Positions 739 to 45,618 of a DNA stretch of 64,000 bases are shown here, piece after piece. The stretch's first letter is position 1. Each line of letters begins with the position of its first letter. The position numbers were made by a program, and so were the translations under genes. The notes beneath the pieces are model-generated. The model had not been told where the DNA came from and searched no databases. It was given only the letters and a program-made list of their open reading frames with translations. This DNA is from Pontederia crassipes (taxonomy: Eukaryota > Streptophyta > Magnoliopsida > Commelinales > Pontederiaceae): NCBI GenBank assembly GCA_030549335.1, contig CM060195.1, positions 46,816,991 through 46,880,990 on the forward strand, in the 5' to 3' direction.

Positions 739-1020
739 TTAGCCGATCCCAAGCCCAGATAAAGGATGAGGGTTGTGTTAGGCCCCGACAGCCAGCGTAA
801 AACTCTGTCGAATCTCATGAATATGGATCAACGAATATATTATGTTAATACTAGGTCGTTACCCGTAAGTAACGCGTTGTACAGCTCGGGTACAGTGATA
901 AGAGAGCAAGAGCCGTTGCATCCTCACCTGAACGTATTAAATGAGCAAGGGCTACCGCACTCTAATGGACGGAGGCGGTTAAAGAAGCTAGTTCATGAGA
1001 CTAAGGTCAGATTAGGTTCT

Positions 1021-1787
1021 TAGAACATTGGGACGTTGAATGGGAAGCGCCTCGAGGTGGTACAAGTAATGGACCGGCATAAGATTAGTATCTTATGCTT
1101 GCAAGAAACTAGATGGGTAGGAGAGGGAAGTAAAGAGATTAGGTTAAATGGTTCCAAACTTTAGTACACATATAAGGTAAAGGGAAGGAATGATGTTGGT
1201 ATTATCGGGATGCAGAATAGAGGAAGAATGTTGTGAAAGTTAAAAGAATTGAGGATCGAATCATATCCGTGAAAGTAATTATTGGAAATAAGACTATGAA
1301 CATTATTAGTACATATGCACCCAAAGTAGGAGCAGAATCACATCTCAAGGAGAAATTTTGGACAGACATGGAGGGTTTGATTGAAAGTATAATAACAATC
1401 GAGAAAGTTTATATTGGGAGAGACCTTAATGAACATATTGGTAAAGAGACAGGACCACATGCAAGGGTTCATGGTGGTTTTGGTTTTGGATAGTTGAATG
1501 AGAAAGGACAAACTATTATTGATTTTTCTTTAGCATACGACTTTAAGATTATCAACACTTGTTTTAGGAAGAGAGAGAAACATTTAATCACATATAAAAG
1601 TGGAACTCATAGGTCTCAAATCGATTTTTTCTTGACAAGAAATATTGATAAAAGACGCTGTACTAATTGCAAAGTAATTCCTGAACATGGAGTGACTACA
1701 CAATATAGATTATTAGTTCTTGATATGAAAATAAAATGTATAAAACTAAAATCTCGAACAGTTTTTTATCGAAAGATCAAGTGGTGA
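1021..1787 (+). pseudogene. RTE endonuclease domain, broken
   Basis: Pieces of the apurinic-type endonuclease of RTE LINEs, which makes the first nick at the target. Readable segments are NIGTLNGKRLEVVQ and LCLQETRWVGEG (about 1024-1130), the ISTYAPK block near 1306-1326, GRDLNEHIGK near 1417-1446 (family: GDLN with the catalytic Asp), and YKSGTHRSQIDFFL near 1590-1635. Stops at 1021, 1162 and 1785 replace Trp codons expected from the family; one more lies at 1491. The frame shifts near 1220. It cannot make an active protein. Confidence 0.85.
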
Positions 1788-3840
1788 CAGTTAAAGGAGG
1801 AGAAGCGAGAGACTTTTAGAAGTAAGTTATTAGAGGAAAGTGTGTGAGAGTTTGAAGGAGATGCTAGTATCATGTGGAAGAATGTGGTAAAAAATATTGA
1901 AATGGTTGCTAAAGTCATTTTAGGAGAATCAAAAGGTTTTGGACCACGAGATAAAGAGACTTGGTGGTGGAATGAGGAGGTCCAAGAAAATGTGCGTAAT
2001 AAGAAGAATTATTTCAAGGCGATACACTTGGACAATAGTTCTGACAATTGGGAAAAGTATCGTTTGGCGAAAAGGGAGGCTAAGAAGGCAGTTAGTAATG
2101 CTCGTGCTAAAGCATATGAGAGGTTTTATAAGGAATTAGGGATAAAGGCTGGTGAACAAAAGATTTACAATATTGCAAGAAATAAAGAGAAGGAGTCGAG
2201 AGATTTGGATCAAGTAAGATGCATAAAAAATGAAGTTGACAAGGTTTTAGTTACTAAGGGAGATATTAAGAATAGATGGGCAGAGTATTTTTATAAGCTA
2301 TTTAATGATGGATGTGAAGGTTCCCGTTGTGATTTGAAGGACTTGACAGTTAGCGAATGTGAGCTTAATATGTCATTTCATCGTAGAATTAGAGTCTCGA
2401 AGGTTAGCGAAGCTCTTAAGAAAATGGAGAATGATAAAGCCGTTGGACCGGATGGTATATCGATTGAAGTTTGGAAATGTTTAGGAGAAAAATGTGTGTT
2501 GTGGTTATGTAAACTATTTAATGAGATTTTACGATCGAAAAAGATGTCTGATGATTGGAGATTAAATACATTAGTTCCTATTTACAAAAATAAAGGGGAT
2601 ATTCAGAATTGTGCAAATTGTAGAGGGATTAAACTTATGAGTCACACAATGAAATTATGGGAAAAAGTGATTGAGCATAGATTGAGAATGAATACTAGTA
2701 TTTCTGAGAGATAATTTGGGTTCATGCCAGGAAGATCCACTACAGAGACGATTTATTTATTAAGGAGGATGATGGAAAAATATCGAAGTATGAGAAGAGA
2801 CTTACATATGGCTTTCATTGACTTAAAGAATGCGTATGATCGAGTATCAAGGGATATACTTTAGAAAGCCTTGCAAAAGAAGAGGATGAGCGTTGCCTAT
2901 ATTAAGGTAATACAAGATATGTACGATGGGACATTGACTAGGGTTAGGACACTCGGAGGTGAGACAAATGAATTTCCTATAGGAATTGGCCTACATCAAG
3001 GATCAGCTTTAAGCCCGTATCTATTTAACTTAGTTATCGATACTATAACCGAGAGTATCACAGAGGATGTACCTAAGTGCATGCTATTTACGTATGATAT
3101 AATACTTTTAGCGGATTCAAGAGAAAATATTAATACAAAATTAGAAATATGGAAAAATACGTTGGAGTCAAAGAGTTTTCGTTTAAGTAGGAATAAAACA
3201 GAATATATGCATAGCAATTTCACAAATAAACAACTTAGAGACGATTTGAAAGTTAGGCTAGGGGAGTATATAATTCTTCAAGTGACAAAGTTTAAATATT
3301 TAGGATCAATTGTAAGACAAGACGACGAGATTGATGACGATGTTAATAATAGAATTCAAGCTGGTTGGTGTAAGTGGAGGAAAGTCACTGGAGTTTTTTG
3401 TGATAGAAAAGTAGCCAATAAAATTAAAGGGAAATTCTATCGTACTGCTATAGATCGGCAGTGTTATATGGTAGTGAATGTTGGGCTATGAAGGGACAAT
3501 ATGAACGTAAAGTGGGAGTAGCCGAAATGAGGATGTTGAGATGGATGTGTGGTCATACAAGATTAGATAATATTAGGAATGACCATATGCGTGAACGAGT
3601 CGGAATGGCTCCTATTAGTGAGAAAATGGTAGAGAATCGTCTGAGATGATTTGATCATGTTCAGAGAAGACCATTAGATACGCTAGTAAGAAGAGTAAAT
3701 CAAATAATCTGGAGTCCGATTAAAAAAGAGAGAGGGAGGCCAAGACGGACACTTGGCGAACTAATAGAGCAAGATCTGTTGGTGAATAATATACCGAAAT
3801 GTTTGGTTACTAATAGAGCGGAATGACGTCGTATGATCCA
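1788..3840 (+). pseudogene. RTE reverse transcriptase, broken
   Basis: Reverse transcriptase of the RTE LINE. 1872-2714 is open for 280 codons and carries the linker and fingers region (KAVGPDGISIEVWKCLG; LVPIYKNKGDIQNC). After a stop at 2712, where the family has Gln, come FGFMPGRSTTET and the palm block AFIDLKNAYDRV (about 2811-2846). A Trp-to-stop follows at 2862, then GLHQGSALSPYLF. The YADD/FADD catalytic box is FTYD near 3088, so one catalytic Asp is missing. The C-terminal segment (YGSECWAMKGQ; MLRWMCGHTRLD) continues in another frame from 3461 to a Trp-to-stop at 3647. Confidence 0.85.
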
Positions 3841-3887
3841 TGTATCCGATCTCACCTAGTGAGATAAGACTTTGTTGTTGTTGTTGT

Positions 3888-5607: not shown

Positions 5608-5738
5608 AGTAATACCAACATTTCCCCTCAGCCTCCTAAGTCAATGTCAAGGAAAAAATTTCAACTATTAAATCAAAATATAAAGCAATGAAGAATTGAT
5701 AGAGTAGACAAGAAATATGGCAAATCTTTGTAGAAACT

Positions 5739-5921
5739 CGAAAACTCCGCCTATATTTTATAGCCGGTTCCAAGTTCGGATAAAGGAGGAGGGTTGTGTT
5801 AGGCCTCGACAGCCAGCATAAAATTCTGTCGAATCTTATGAACATGGATCAACGAATAGTCGTATGATCCATGTAGCCGACCCCACCTAGTGGGATAAAG
5901 CTTTGTTGTTATTGTTGTTTG
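5739..5921 (+). mobile_element. Short RTE derivative (5' end fused to 3' end), copy 1
   Basis: From 5760 the sequence follows the 5' end of the RTE LINE for about 105 bp (ggttgtgttaggc; gacagccagc; gatcaacgaata), then passes directly into the RTE 3' end (gtcgtatgatccatgtagcc; cacctagtgggataa) and a TTG-rich tail. Nearly 3 kb of coding sequence is absent. It is flanked by a 13-bp direct repeat, ctttgtagaaact, at 5726-5738 and 5922-5934, so it inserted as a unit. It codes for nothing and would need RTE enzymes in trans. The insertion lies inside the B3 relic array. Confidence 0.85.
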
Positions 5922-6107
5922 CTTTGTAGAAACTGGAACTTAAGCAACTCTTCAAAATTTTGTATCGGCAAAACGCGTTAATCTTTTTTTAAAAAACTAA
6001 AACATGAGCAACTCTTCCCAATTTTATGTAGCCAAAGTGAAGCTTGCATCAAGCCTTTCACACCATAGGGATACTTGATCGGTCTGTTGTTGAATAGTTC
6101 ATCTTCT

Positions 6108-17206: not shown

Positions 17207-20200
17207 AAGGGTTCTCCCTCTTTAGAAGCGGAATTGGTTGGTTCGATGTCAAGAAGGAAGATGCCCCTGACAAGAGAGAACTTTCACCTTCTGTAACCCT
17301 TCAACTGGACAAGGAAACATATAGGCCTGGTGAGACGGTCATTGCAACCATTGAAATCTGTGGCCCCAAGATCACAAAGGAAAGCTCTGACCTGGCGCAG
17401 CTGGCTGGCACTTCGTTCTTGGTAGATAACCTCGCGTTTGAAATCAAGGGCGTTGAGAAATTGGATTCGCAATGGTTTGCCACCCCAAAACCTTTGCCAG
17501 GTTCTAGGCAAGCAAGAGGTACTCCTCACCTTCTCTGAATACTCGAAAGTTCTGTAAGCATTTCATTCCATTGCCAATTCTGTTATAGGTTTATAGCATT
17601 TGTAGCTGATATGTTTTATAGCCGGTCCAAGCTCGGATAAAGGAGGAGGGTTGTGTTAGGCCCGACAGCCAGCATAAAACCCTGTCGAATCTCATGAACA
17701 TTGATCAATCCATGTAGCCGACCCCACCTAGTGGGATAAGGCTTTGTTGTTGTTATTGTTGTAGCTGATCAGGACGAGTCCTCGTCTGCATATTACTCCT
17801 TCGCAGTCCTATGTTTTCTTTTTGAAACGGGAAAGGGTAGCCATCCACTTTATTAAACTGATGGAATTTTGCGTGCCACAACCTGAGTGACAGTATTAGA
17901 TCCTCTTCCACTCCCACACGGCCACACCCATCTGCATATACCTTCTCCCCTCTAACTAAGCAACCATTCTGTTGGAGCCAAAGGGACCACAGGAAGCCAT
18001 CTTGAGACATACACCTGCACTCATTGATCACGAGCACCACCAGATCTAAAGGGATCCCAGAAGCCCACTGCTGAGTGAGTGTTAATCCAGCTGCAACTTG
18101 CTATTTTCCATACTTATGTAGCCACCGGACAATCAAAGAAGAGATGATCAATGTCCTCCATTAGAACATCACAAAAGCAGCATGCCACATGAGCATCTCA
18201 TTGTATGTAACTCCTTATGGGTAGATTTCTTAAAGACAAAACTCCCCTTGATGGCAGATGGCTCCCTCTGTGTAACCACACAAATATGTTCACATTCTGA
18301 TGGATGTTCATAGTCCTATTTTGTTATCCTAATAAAATGCCAACTGCCAGGTGCTGTGTCATTTTGCTTTCCTCCCTTGTCCAAGCATGCATTGTTTCTC
18401 CATCACCTAGTTTCTTGCGTGTAGCTGTGTTTATTGCTTTTTAGTCTCTTTGCACCAAGACAAACAACATGATCACTATCTATGTGTTGCATAATTTCAT
18501 AACTCACCTTGTTTCTTTGAGAAGGCATACCTTACCTCTTATGCATCCCCTTGCAGGTGAGAACTTGTTTTTGGATGCAACAGCACCATCTGTAATTTCC
18601 AAGGTTGTTCTTTCATCTGGAAGTACCAAAACATGTGAGTTCTTTCTCTTGGTTTGATATCATAATCGTACAGATCTCTCAAAAGGCATAATCTCATATA
18701 TCTTTAGCTTAGTACTTCGGAGAAAATTTAGGTGACCATAACAAAGGAAATTGATCAATTAGGTAGAAAGCTCCAGTTTTCTTTATCAGATTGTAGGGAT
18801 AAATAACATGAATCTCATTTTGGTATGCCAAATCCATTTTCGTTGCGTACAGATCGTTTGACGTCATTTGTTCAGAATGCTGTCCATTTCTCATGGAGGG
18901 AATTTTGAGTCTGATACTCTTTTTTCTATCTGACCTACTTTCTCCTCAAGCAGAGAAACTGTTGGTTACTGATCCTTGGTCAGATAACATATTCAATAGA
19001 TATGTAATGTCTTGCTATGACTCTATTTCTACTCATTGTCAAACTAATTCGTTCATATATCTTTGTAGTATATATTTTCTTCATCGTGTCCATTGGTAAT
19101 TTTGTTCAGATCATGACCTTGAAATAAGAATTAAAAATTTGGATGTTTAAAAAGTTCACTTTTTACTTGCCAGAAGGATATGCTAATTAGGGACATTTGT
19201 AAGTAAATCCATTCTTGAACTGTGTTCAGAAAATGAACTTTTCCTTATTCAGTACCTGCCATTTCCATTATGAGAGCAATATGTGTGTTTATCCTGAAAC
19301 TTCATCTGGTCCCACACATTCATTTTAACTACTGGGTTGTAGATGATTGATTGTTTGACGTGTAAAAATTGGAAGCTTCTCAGTATTTTTTTTTGAAGTA
19401 AAAGCTTCTCAGTATTTAGACATATGACATGTTCCAACAAGAACTGGTTTATTATCATTCTTGTTTTAGAACATATACCATTCATAATTTGACACTTATG
19501 CGTTAGCTGCTTGTTATTGTACATTGACTACCTACAAATGTTTGCAGATGTAGTAAGAGTTGACCTGCCAAAGATTTTGCCGCCATCTTATCGGGGCATT
19601 AGCATTCGCTACATATATTATGTCAGAACTACAATATCTGGTCGATGGCTTGTTTTGGAGAATCACAATTATAATAGAGGGTCCATCAACAATTCCATCC
19701 AAGTGGTCAGATTCTTTAACTAATAATTTTCTAGCAGATTCTTTTCTGTATTTATATTGTTATTTTCCTATATCCATTCCATGAATAGAATCTCATAAAT
19801 TGGACTCTGGTTGTACATTTTTTGTTTGTTTCCAGTCAACGAGCAGGTAAATGATTAGTAAATCTGTGTATTTTTTGAAAGTAGTAAATCTGTATTATGT
19901 TTTTAGCGCCAAGCATTTACTCTGTAAGGATGGAGGTAACTGCTCAACTAGTGATCTAACTCTACAAGTCTATTTGATCAATTATTGTGGCCAAAGTCCA
20001 AACATCATCGATAAGCTTCTTCAGCATAGATCAGCTTATGAATGTGTTGTTTACTGTTCACTACTTGAATAACTGTTTAGCAGTATCTTGAAATGTTGAA
20101 AAACTAGTTGTTAATAATTTTGTTTCGGCCTAGCAGGAATCTCGGACTCCATTGCAAATCTGGGCATCACAAAAGAGTAACAACTTGCTGAATGAAGAAG

Positions 20201-43529: not shown

Positions 43530-45618
43530 AGATTCAATAGGGGAAGAAATTTACAAATAGAAGAGGCTAGGAGAAGAACTTTTGAGGAAGGGGCTGTTAA
43601 TCAAAATATGATTGCACTATGGACACTCAAGGATTGCTATTCACCTAGCAATGTCAGAAATCAACAAGGGAATGGAGTCCTAACACGTACTGCCAACTTT
43701 GAAGTGAATCCAGCACTAATCACAATGATAGGGCAATATCAATTTGCTGGATTGGGGAATGAGGATCCAGTTTCACACCTTGACAACTTCAAGGAGAATT
43801 GCAGCATTGTCCACTTTAATAATACACCTATGGATGCTGTCTACATGAGACTATTCCCCTTCTCACTCAAGGATAAGAAAATATTTGGTACAAGACCCTC
43901 AAATCAGAAGAGATTGCCACTTGAGAGTCCATAGTTCAATTATTTCTAGCTGAATTCTTTCCACCTAGCAAAACTGATAACTATATGGATCATATTGTCA
44001 TGTTTTACCAATTGGATCAGGAGAACATATGTGATGCATGGCAAAGACTCCAAAGCTTGTTAAGGGTATGTCCACATCATGGATTTGAGAAATGACAGTT
44101 GGTCTACTATTTTCACAAGGGTCTGAATTTTTCATCTAAAGTGGCATTGGACACTACTGCAGGAGGGAGTTTTGCCTCCAAAAACATTGATGAGGCCTAC
44201 AATTAATTAAGAACATGGCCAAGAATCACCATTTCCTTACACATGACAGGACAAGGAGGCTATCCAATGAAAATGAAGTTAACAATATTGCTGTCCAGAT
44301 TGAACAAGGATTGTACATTGGAGAAGTTGAATTTGTCACATAATGTCAACAGGACTTCCAATTCTAAATCAAGGTGTGATGTGTGTGAAAATCAAGGTCA
44401 TGTCACTGAGAGTTGTAACCTGATAATGCAGCAACATGAGCAAGCCATAGACCAAGTGAATGCTGTGGGGAATTATGGAGTGTAGCCCCCTGCTGAGTTT
44501 TATACTCCAAAAAATAAAATCATCCCTACCTCTCCTATAAGGCCAACCATTACCAAGAGCCACCCATGCAGAATTCTAGTTGGCAACCCAAGATCTTGCC
44601 AAGGAACCAGCCCCCTCCACATATGATTCAGTCCTCAACCATTCCTATGCAAAGATCCCCTTATGAGCAGCCACTACAACCTCAACCCACTTAATTCTCA
44701 AAGATGGAAGAGTTGCTGCAACAAATTTTGAAGAAACAAGAGAAGTAAGAGGAGGAAATGCAGAAGTTAACAAATAGATATGAAGCCTTGAGTGCCAACC
44801 AAAAATTGCTTGAAAGCCAAATTGCCCAACAAGCAAGCACATTCAATAGGCCACCCATGTTCTTCCCTGGACAATTAAAAGTGAACCCAAAGGAACAAGC
44901 CAAAGCAATCCAACTCAAGAGTGGAAGGACTGTGGAGGAGCCAATGAAGAAGGTTGAAGACAATTCAGCTCAACCAAATCCAAATTCTAAGGCTGCAGAA
45001 GAATCAAATGAAGGGGCTGTGTTGGAAAATCAGAATCAACATCCTCAAAGTGAAGCCAAGACAAGAATTTTTTATAAGGTGCCATTTCCACAAAGATTGG
45101 TCAAGGTCCAATTGTCACAAGTTATCAGTAGGCCAAATTTTCAAGAAAATGATTTTGAAGAGGGGCAGCTGGATCAGATTGTACAGCAAGTTTCTGTTAT
45201 AATTCCCATTGGAGATCCATTGCAAAGGTGCCTAATGTTTGATCATTTGAATGAATTAGAGGATCCAGAATTCAAAGCATACAAATCAACTATGAATGCA
45301 CTCCAATCAATAGGTAATTCAGAATTTCAAAATGGGATGTTGGAGGTTTTCACTATTGAACCCCACACCAATTCAACTCAGGACATTTCCTCCCATTTAG
45401 AGCTAAAATCTCTTCCTAGTCCAAGGGATTCATATATCATACATGAGGATTTTAGAGATGAGAAGTTAGTACACTTCTGGTACAATGAAGGAGGGGTACA
45501 TCCAAGTGAAAAACAAAGATCAATCATTAACAAAGAAAGAGATCCATACTTGATTAGTGAAGCTGTCCACAGATTGAGATCTCTACTTGATCATATCATA
45601 CTATTTAAACCTCCTTAA
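43530..45618 (+). pseudogene. Athila gag, broken
   Basis: First part (43608-43934): ANFEVNPALITMIGQYQFAG, NEDPVSHLDNFKENC, MRLFPFSLKDKK, as in Athila capsids. It then breaks by frameshifts near 43890, with later pieces such as LLRVCPHHGFEK near 44060. The knuckle CDVCENQGHVTESC (about 44380) is a perfect C-x2-C-x4-H-x4-C. A long C-terminal open piece, 44758-45618 (286 codons), has EQAKAIQLKSGRTVEEP, the conserved Athila gag end block, and then an unusual tail. Nothing like protease or polymerase follows. Confidence 0.85.

Follow-up and report, generated by a model that had tools for sequence, protein, structure and literature searches.

A Short Element with a Twister-like Head as a Probable Internally Deleted Derivative of a Plant RTE-Type LINE

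Introduction

The locus described here raises the question of how a short mobile element can come to consist of the two ends of a LINE, and of which known class of elements it most resembles. Two such elements, termed eA and eB, lie in the window, that is, the whole stretch of 64,000 nucleotides of Pontederia crassipes DNA that was analyzed, together with a decayed copy of the LINE to which both of their ends correspond. The original prediction saw in them a mobile unit that acts like a SINE. Au-like SINEs and AngioSINEs carry an RTE 3′ end and a TTG tail, and their head is tRNA-derived with Pol III boxes. Here, we argue that, with a probability of roughly 0.7, the element instead belongs to the short internally deleted elements (SIDEs) and stems from a plant RTE-type LINE, being capped by a ribozyme, inserted in trans, and formed repeatedly. 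As in a SIDE, both ends are collinear with one LINE and the middle is absent, and the unit has been retrotransposed, with target-site duplications (TSDs) of its own and many copies.

The Window Copies and Their Partner LINE

The elements and their parts are as follows.

740–3887, plus strand: window copy of the partner LINE, with broken frames and a truncated 5′ end; RVT_1 lies in 2865–3491
5726–5738, plus strand: left TSD of eB, CTTTGTAGAAACT, exact over 13 bp
5739–5921, plus strand: short element eB, 5′ end complete, with 4 extra nt (CGAA)
5858–5859, plus strand: eB junction of the LINE 5′ part (837) with the LINE 3′ part (3828), placed by BLASTN
5882–5894, plus strand: 3′ stem-loop of eB, CCCAC-CTA-GTGGG, upstream of the TTG tail
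5922–5934, plus strand: right TSD of eB, CTTTGTAGAAACT, exact over 13 bp
17600–17610, plus strand: left TSD of eA, TTGTAGCTGAT, exact over 11 bp
17611–17758, plus strand: short element eA, a 5′-truncated copy without the first 10 nt, AACTCCGCCT
17707–17708, plus strand: eA junction of the LINE 5′ and 3′ parts, of the GATCA/ATCC class, placed by BLAST within about 1 base
17723–17735, plus strand: 3′ stem-loop of eA, CCCAC-CTA-GTGGG, upstream of the TTG tail
17759–17769, plus strand: right TSD of eA, TTGTAGCTGAT, exact over 11 bp

The interval 17600–17769, with which the original prediction was concerned, is eA including its TSDs. Within the window, BLASTN aligns eA 9–98 with LINE 740–831 (89%) and eA 98–148 with LINE 3836–3886 (88%), and likewise eB 23–120 with LINE 740–837 (89%) and eB 121–180 with LINE 3828–3887 (88%). 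The TSDs directly adjoin the ends of both elements. In a chance control that is loose, as the repeat need not abut the element, an exact repeat of at least 11 bp occurred in 1.9% of 2,000 random zone pairs with the geometry of eA, and one of at least 13 bp in 1.2% of 2,000 pairs with that of eB. The predicted composition, fused LINE ends each with a perfect TSD of its own, is thus confirmed, as is the reported 15-bp difference between eA and eB at the junction. The 5′ end had been set at LINE position 740; measured by the equivalent position, the family start, AACTCCGCC (5743 in eB), is about 18 bp farther upstream.

The 3′ stem-loop reads CTCAC/GTGAG in the window LINE (3851–3863) and CCCAC/GTGGG in the short copies (5882–5894 and 17723–17735), a difference of one pair changed on both sides. 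Elsewhere in the window, the minus strand at 43979–44085 matches the plant C/D snoRNA R71 (RF00097) with 39.2 bits, the gathering score being 40.

Copies in the Source Genome

The junction was counted in the 1.13 Gb source genome with an exact gapped pattern, CATGGATCA followed by 0–30 letters of any kind and ATCCATGTAGCCGA. There are at least 9,903 matches (4,954 + 4,949); the figure covers joins whose anchors are intact and no more than 30 nt apart, and it does not amount to a census or verify copy ends. The reversed pattern, used as a control, gave 0. Head-plus-tail pattern scans of a collection of viral contigs and one of genome contigs gave no match.

A genome search with eA returned 1,927 first-look candidates, of which the best 40 were scored, and all of these span query positions 1–144 or more. 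The corresponding search with LINE 750–1500 returned 2,647 first-look candidates, and again the best 40 were scored. The short-copy set comprises the 40 loci, among them L001 (eA), plus eB and minus the duplicated insertions L015, L016, and L029, which leaves 38 copies, every one except eB selected by similarity to eA. Their divergence from the majority sequence averages 2.2%. The first 100 junctions listed, all on contig C1, form a second sample whose selection is independent of similarity to eA. Near-identical upstream flanks are found in L014, L015, and L029, which also have the same TSD, and in L011 and L016; these look like duplicated insertions. The flanks of L022, L030, and L045 hold second matches to LINE ends or to the short element, perhaps a sign of clustering.

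The Twister-like Head

Two further features of eB concern its 5′ end.

5738–5797, plus strand: match to the type-P1 twister ribozyme (RF03160), 53.4 bits over model positions 1–68, the gathering score being 67.2
5742–5743, plus strand: predicted twister cleavage point, 5743 being the family start AACTCCGCC

In a whole-window cmscan by E-value, the eB match has an E of 3.9e-9; at the gathering thresholds of Rfam the window contains no match. A partial match only is seen in eA (22.8 bits, 191-base search) and a weak one in the decayed window LINE (26.4 bits, 261-base search), both absent from the whole-window listing at E 0.1. The head of eB has 28 of the 35 upper-case letters of the twister consensus, its P2 and P4 pairs can form, and so can the T1/T2 pseudoknot pairs at what we take to be their positions, two of them as G-U. 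Plain folding without pseudoknots found the heads no more stable than shuffles (z −0.79, −0.08, and −0.21).

In the fetched loci, a twister is matched in 19 of 20 short-element loci with E at most 1.4e-4, the exception, L010, being 5′-truncated; a second Rfam scan found it in 12 of 12 short copies, and all 8 scanned LINEs with full 5′ ends have it as well. E ranges from 1.4e-4 to 3e-13 in 39 of the 40 scanned sources, which include 32 of the 40 short loci (L013, L015, L016, L021, L029, L032, L036, and L001, which is eA, were left out) and exclude the truncated LINEs L042, L043, and L052. The HDV family is not among the Rfam matches of the scanned elements, whereas twister is. The aligned copies agree in the letters of the twister core, and a single one of the 41 twister matches in the fetched loci reaches the gathering score of 67.2, namely L011 with 67.7 bits.

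The 5′ strand of P1 is supplied by the target DNA, and the base before the element start is variable (T 16, G 11, A 10, C 6; n = 43). Scores below the gathering threshold are to be expected if each new copy takes this strand from its target. Cleavage does not require P1, and the twister cuts at a U-A dinucleotide, according to the relevant passages of PMC6154101. We took the dinucleotide from there and inferred its position on the Rfam alignment; in eB the base ahead of the predicted cut is A, not U. A cut at CCGCCT|ATA, by which eA would be the cleaved product, was considered and rejected, as the Rfam alignment puts the cut before AACTCCGCC and eA is merely 5′-truncated.

Element Ends and Insertion Signature

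TSDs of at least 11 bp flank 26 of the 38 non-redundant short copies and measure 16–20 bp in 21 of these 26. The copy starts at ACTCC or one base ahead of it in 17 of the 26; another 6 carry 1–10 extra nt ahead of AACTCC, and the remaining 3 are shorter. Among these last, L036 has a TSD call of 23 bp in which AACTCC is included and which may be wrongly placed. Among 11 LINEs outside the window, 8 have TSDs of 14–20 bp, and all 8 share the start of the short copies to within one base; the 3 others are 5′-truncated. In LINEs and short copies alike, the shared start is the base after the predicted twister U-A cleavage dinucleotide. The function of plant twisters is given as unknown in the passage on them in a 2023 plant review (PMC10226581). 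Since LINEs and short copies begin at the predicted cut, setting the 5′ end of a retrotransposon RNA is a candidate job for them.

The insertion sites of the short copies, for which alone this signature was computed, are rich in T at fixed places: the first base of the TSD is T in 21 of 26, and T stands at −8 in 21 and at −9 in 18, against a flank background of 32%. This is the insertion pattern of plant RTE elements, a T stretch about 10 nt ahead of a TSD that begins with T, as the portion of PMC13295347 dealing with it describes. Together with the TTG tail, discussed in a passage of PMC3747384, the signature suggests that the partner LINE belongs to the RTE clade. The shared 3′ end, the 5′ end, and the T-run signature of the short copies would further indicate that they were mobilized by the proteins of the parent LINE.

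One LINE, L050, shows near position 1468 a 5′ end whose first ~26 nt are tandemly doubled within a single TSD. The doubling perhaps arose by a jump back to the 5′ end as reverse transcription closed.

Variability of the Junction

The junction is by far the most variable stretch of the 40-locus alignment. Of 38 junctions, 17 join LINE 5′ and 3′ parts bluntly, 12 share 1–2 nt, and 9 contain letters beyond what a single join accounts for; those accounted for end 0–7 nt past GGATCA and begin 0–11 nt before ATCC. The first 100 listed junctions fall into 47 join classes, with 67 distinct sequences if point changes are counted. A single LINE join fits 57 of them perfectly, 30 with one mismatch, and 13 with 2–5 mismatches, and the 3′ extents reach 22 nt. 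Junction lengths in this sample peak at 17 and fall to 2 of 100 at lengths of 29 and of 30. The closeness of the junctions is partly built in by the limit of 30 nt between anchors. Microhomology of at least 2 nt is modestly raised (30% of 57 versus 19%).

Copies with the same join are no more alike elsewhere than other copies (−0.011, a value reached by 4,903 of 5,000 permutations; 38 copies). Two copies, L002 and L020, have the odd join GGATTAAACC in common and differ in head haplotype and flanks.

The genome search upholds the view of a mobile unit with both ends LINE-derived, its own TSDs, and joins by the thousand. Its differences at the fusion point had been read as a sign of sub-families, a reading that finds no support in the 47 join classes among the first 100 listed junctions or in the 38 copies, where joins are unrelated to kinship. 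The join point is no subfamily mark: joins vary near the stem described below and do not track relatedness. A continuum of deletions with no shared fusion had been named as a pattern that would speak against a family; the joins are in part such a continuum, but the termini are shared in the copies examined.

Complementary Arms at the Junction

The joins are located where the ends of the LINE are mutually complementary, which involves three features.

823–834, plus strand: LINE 5′ arm, ATGGATCAACGA, complementary to the 3′ arm (21 of 2,000 shuffles as good)
3829–3841, plus strand: LINE 3′ arm, TCGTATGATCCAT, complementary to the 5′ arm
5842–5874, plus strand: 14-bp hairpin of eB spanning the junction, its arms being the LINE 5′ and 3′ parts

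The fold across the eB junction stands out from shuffles of 5833–5905 (z −4.74; 0 of 200), and the local complement of eB is equaled in 3 of 2,000 shuffles. The duplex energy of the LINE ends is not significant, being matched by 41 of 500 shuffles and 13 of 142 other LINE segments, and the entire eA does not exceed its shuffles in stability (z −0.43). A stable end-to-end panhandle of the LINE was dropped as weak by duplex energy, though the local arms stand out somewhat. An AT-AC splice origin, an idea from sequence alone, was also abandoned.

Proposed Mechanism

From these observations, the following life cycle may be proposed. A read-through transcript would fold the twister at the first base of the element and cut itself, so that the RNA would begin at AACTCCGCC. 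The 3′ stem-loop and (TTG)n tail, common to the short element and the LINE, would then recruit the LINE endonuclease/reverse transcriptase in trans. Target-primed reverse transcription would lead to insertion at T-rich sites with TSDs; the TSDs are seen, and the mechanism is deduced from them. The internal deletion itself would arise where the 5′ arm ATGGATCAACGA of the LINE RNA pairs with the 3′ arm TCGTATGATCCAT. The reverse transcriptase may bypass the middle of about 3 kb and join the arms at slightly varying points in each event. Because the join point varies between events, many copies were probably made afresh from LINE RNA and are not the copies of one founder.

Alternative Explanations

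The main competitor of this account, which we consider possible though unlikely, holds that the copies descend from a single SIDE whose hairpin tip was long, forming a lineage of their own in which reverse transcription erodes the tip to a variable extent. Head and tail are indeed alike around a variable tip, and some joins recur, such as ACGAGTCGTATG in 4 of 38 copies. At head site 62, 10 of the 38 short copies lack 1 nt, and 6 more have the haplotype GCACC. Neither variant occurs in 12 sampled LINE heads, as expected of a separate short-element lineage, though these LINEs are the best matches to one copy. Against a founder, joins are independent of relatedness, and one join can occur with several head haplotypes; nor did the 38 copies or the first 100 listed junctions (joins of at most 30 nt) include a founder that combines all of the 5′ and 3′ extents. 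Sampled LINEs also match haplotypes of the short copies: ACATT, carried by 8 short copies, is found in 8 of the 12 LINE heads (site 13 falls ahead of the truncated start of L052), and GCGCC agrees with the window LINE at the four sites that this truncated copy covers. Repeated formation from LINE RNA is favored, by a modest margin, over one eroding founder lineage.

A different objection concerns the head. The common 5′ end could be a transcription start set by an internal Pol II promoter, with the similarity to twister left over and playing no part in the life cycle; every twister match but one lies below the Rfam cut-off and the −1 base is unconstrained. We regard it as improbable, since LINEs as well as short copies start at the base that follows the twister U-A and the core is similar from one aligned copy to the next; moreover, truncated yet competent twisters are conserved at RTE 5′ ends in the words of one sentence of PMC7761336, and P1 is not needed for cleavage in the pertinent section of PMC6154101. 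Far less credible is an ordinary plant SINE, Au-like or an AngioSINE, that has a Pol III promoter and has taken its tail from an RTE. Size, TSDs, copy number, and LINE tail would all suit it, but the head is the 5′ end of a LINE and not of tRNA origin. The Pol III boxes whose presence the original prediction proposed to check fit at chance level (A and B boxes with 5 mismatches; 161 of 300 random pieces as good), and a search of the window for tRNA genes found none. The statement that the unit acts like a SINE calls for qualification: with a ribozyme-like head, Pol III boxes at chance, and no tRNA gene in the window, a SIDE is the better comparison. Least credible of all is that DNA deletion removed the middle from complete LINEs after their insertion. 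The ends would be those of the LINE, as observed, but independent deletions would hardly yield 9,903 joins that fall within 30 nt and whose lengths, in the first 100, have their maximum at 17 and thin out toward 30, and the copies diverge little from the majority (mean 2.2% in 38 copies, all but eB selected by similarity to eA). A twister-capped SIDE formed repeatedly from LINE RNA remains our preferred reading. Somewhat short of an even chance is the broader suggestion that the ~10^4 short copies are the recurrent product of a structured LINE RNA with complementary ends, to which the abundance of twisters in plants would in part be due.

Comparison with Known Systems

The original prediction knew of no described family with both ends from an RTE. 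Such a design is known from mammals, where MAR4, RTESINE1, Bov-A2, and RTE1-N1_LA combine an RTE 5′ head with an RTE 3′ tail; these are animal elements, and a ribozyme is unmentioned in the passage on Table 1 of PMC3747384. For plants the statement stands as far as our literature search goes, which turned up no plant SIDE and none with a twister; searched for head and tail letters, the literature yielded one paper, with a Curcuma SSR primer containing CACCTAGTGGGA. The tobacco pair TS/RTE-1_Stu, in a passage of PMC3747384, shares the RTE 3′ end and TTG tail with the present element, but its head is of tRNA origin and contains Pol III boxes. One sentence of PMC7761336, marked 'in preparation', places truncated twisters at the 5′ ends of RTE elements and proposes that they process this end; it concerns the RTE LINEs themselves and names no short derivative and no host.

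Non-LTR SIDEs are called rare in a passage of PMC6740152 that names flies, a mosquito, and a trypanosome. Persaeus, the CR1 SIDE of Lepidoptera treated there, is like the present element abundant, thought to have formed several times, and variable in its breakpoint; it derives from CR1, and the word ribozyme is absent from the text of PMC6740152. The Hebe LINE of a bdelloid rotifer likewise shows many internal deletions at microhomologies with intact ends. Its deletions, however, are of 12–200 bp and attributed to end joining, and no miniature family is mentioned in the passages concerned (PMC2861651). NARTc/L1Tc and RIME/ingi of trypanosomatids are closer in design, as the short partner has both LINE ends and a 5′ ribozyme, but the latter is HDV-like, lies in Pr77, which is also a promoter, and the clade is another (PMC4035085, in the part describing them).

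The nearest parallel is offered by the R2 SIDEs of Drosophila, deletion derivatives moved by LINE machinery that combine, as here, a 5′ self-cleaving ribozyme with the 3′ end of the LINE; for these and for R2/R1 hybrid SIDEs the authors also consider template jumps, in the sections of PMC3414825 devoted to them. According to the same sections, R2 SIDEs have an HDV-like ribozyme, occupy an rDNA site, and are rare, whereas the element described here has a head resembling a twister, is scattered over T-rich sites, and is represented by ~10^4 joins. If it is such a SIDE, its thousands of joins are a natural record from which the rules of reverse-transcriptase jumping, or of RNA joining across a stem, might be read. 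What is new is the twister-like ribozyme match at the head of a short element, the both-ends-of-RTE design being known from the mammalian entries in the table of PMC3747384 noted above; the element would show that the SIDE design, a 5′ ribozyme with a 3′ recognition end, works with another class of ribozyme.
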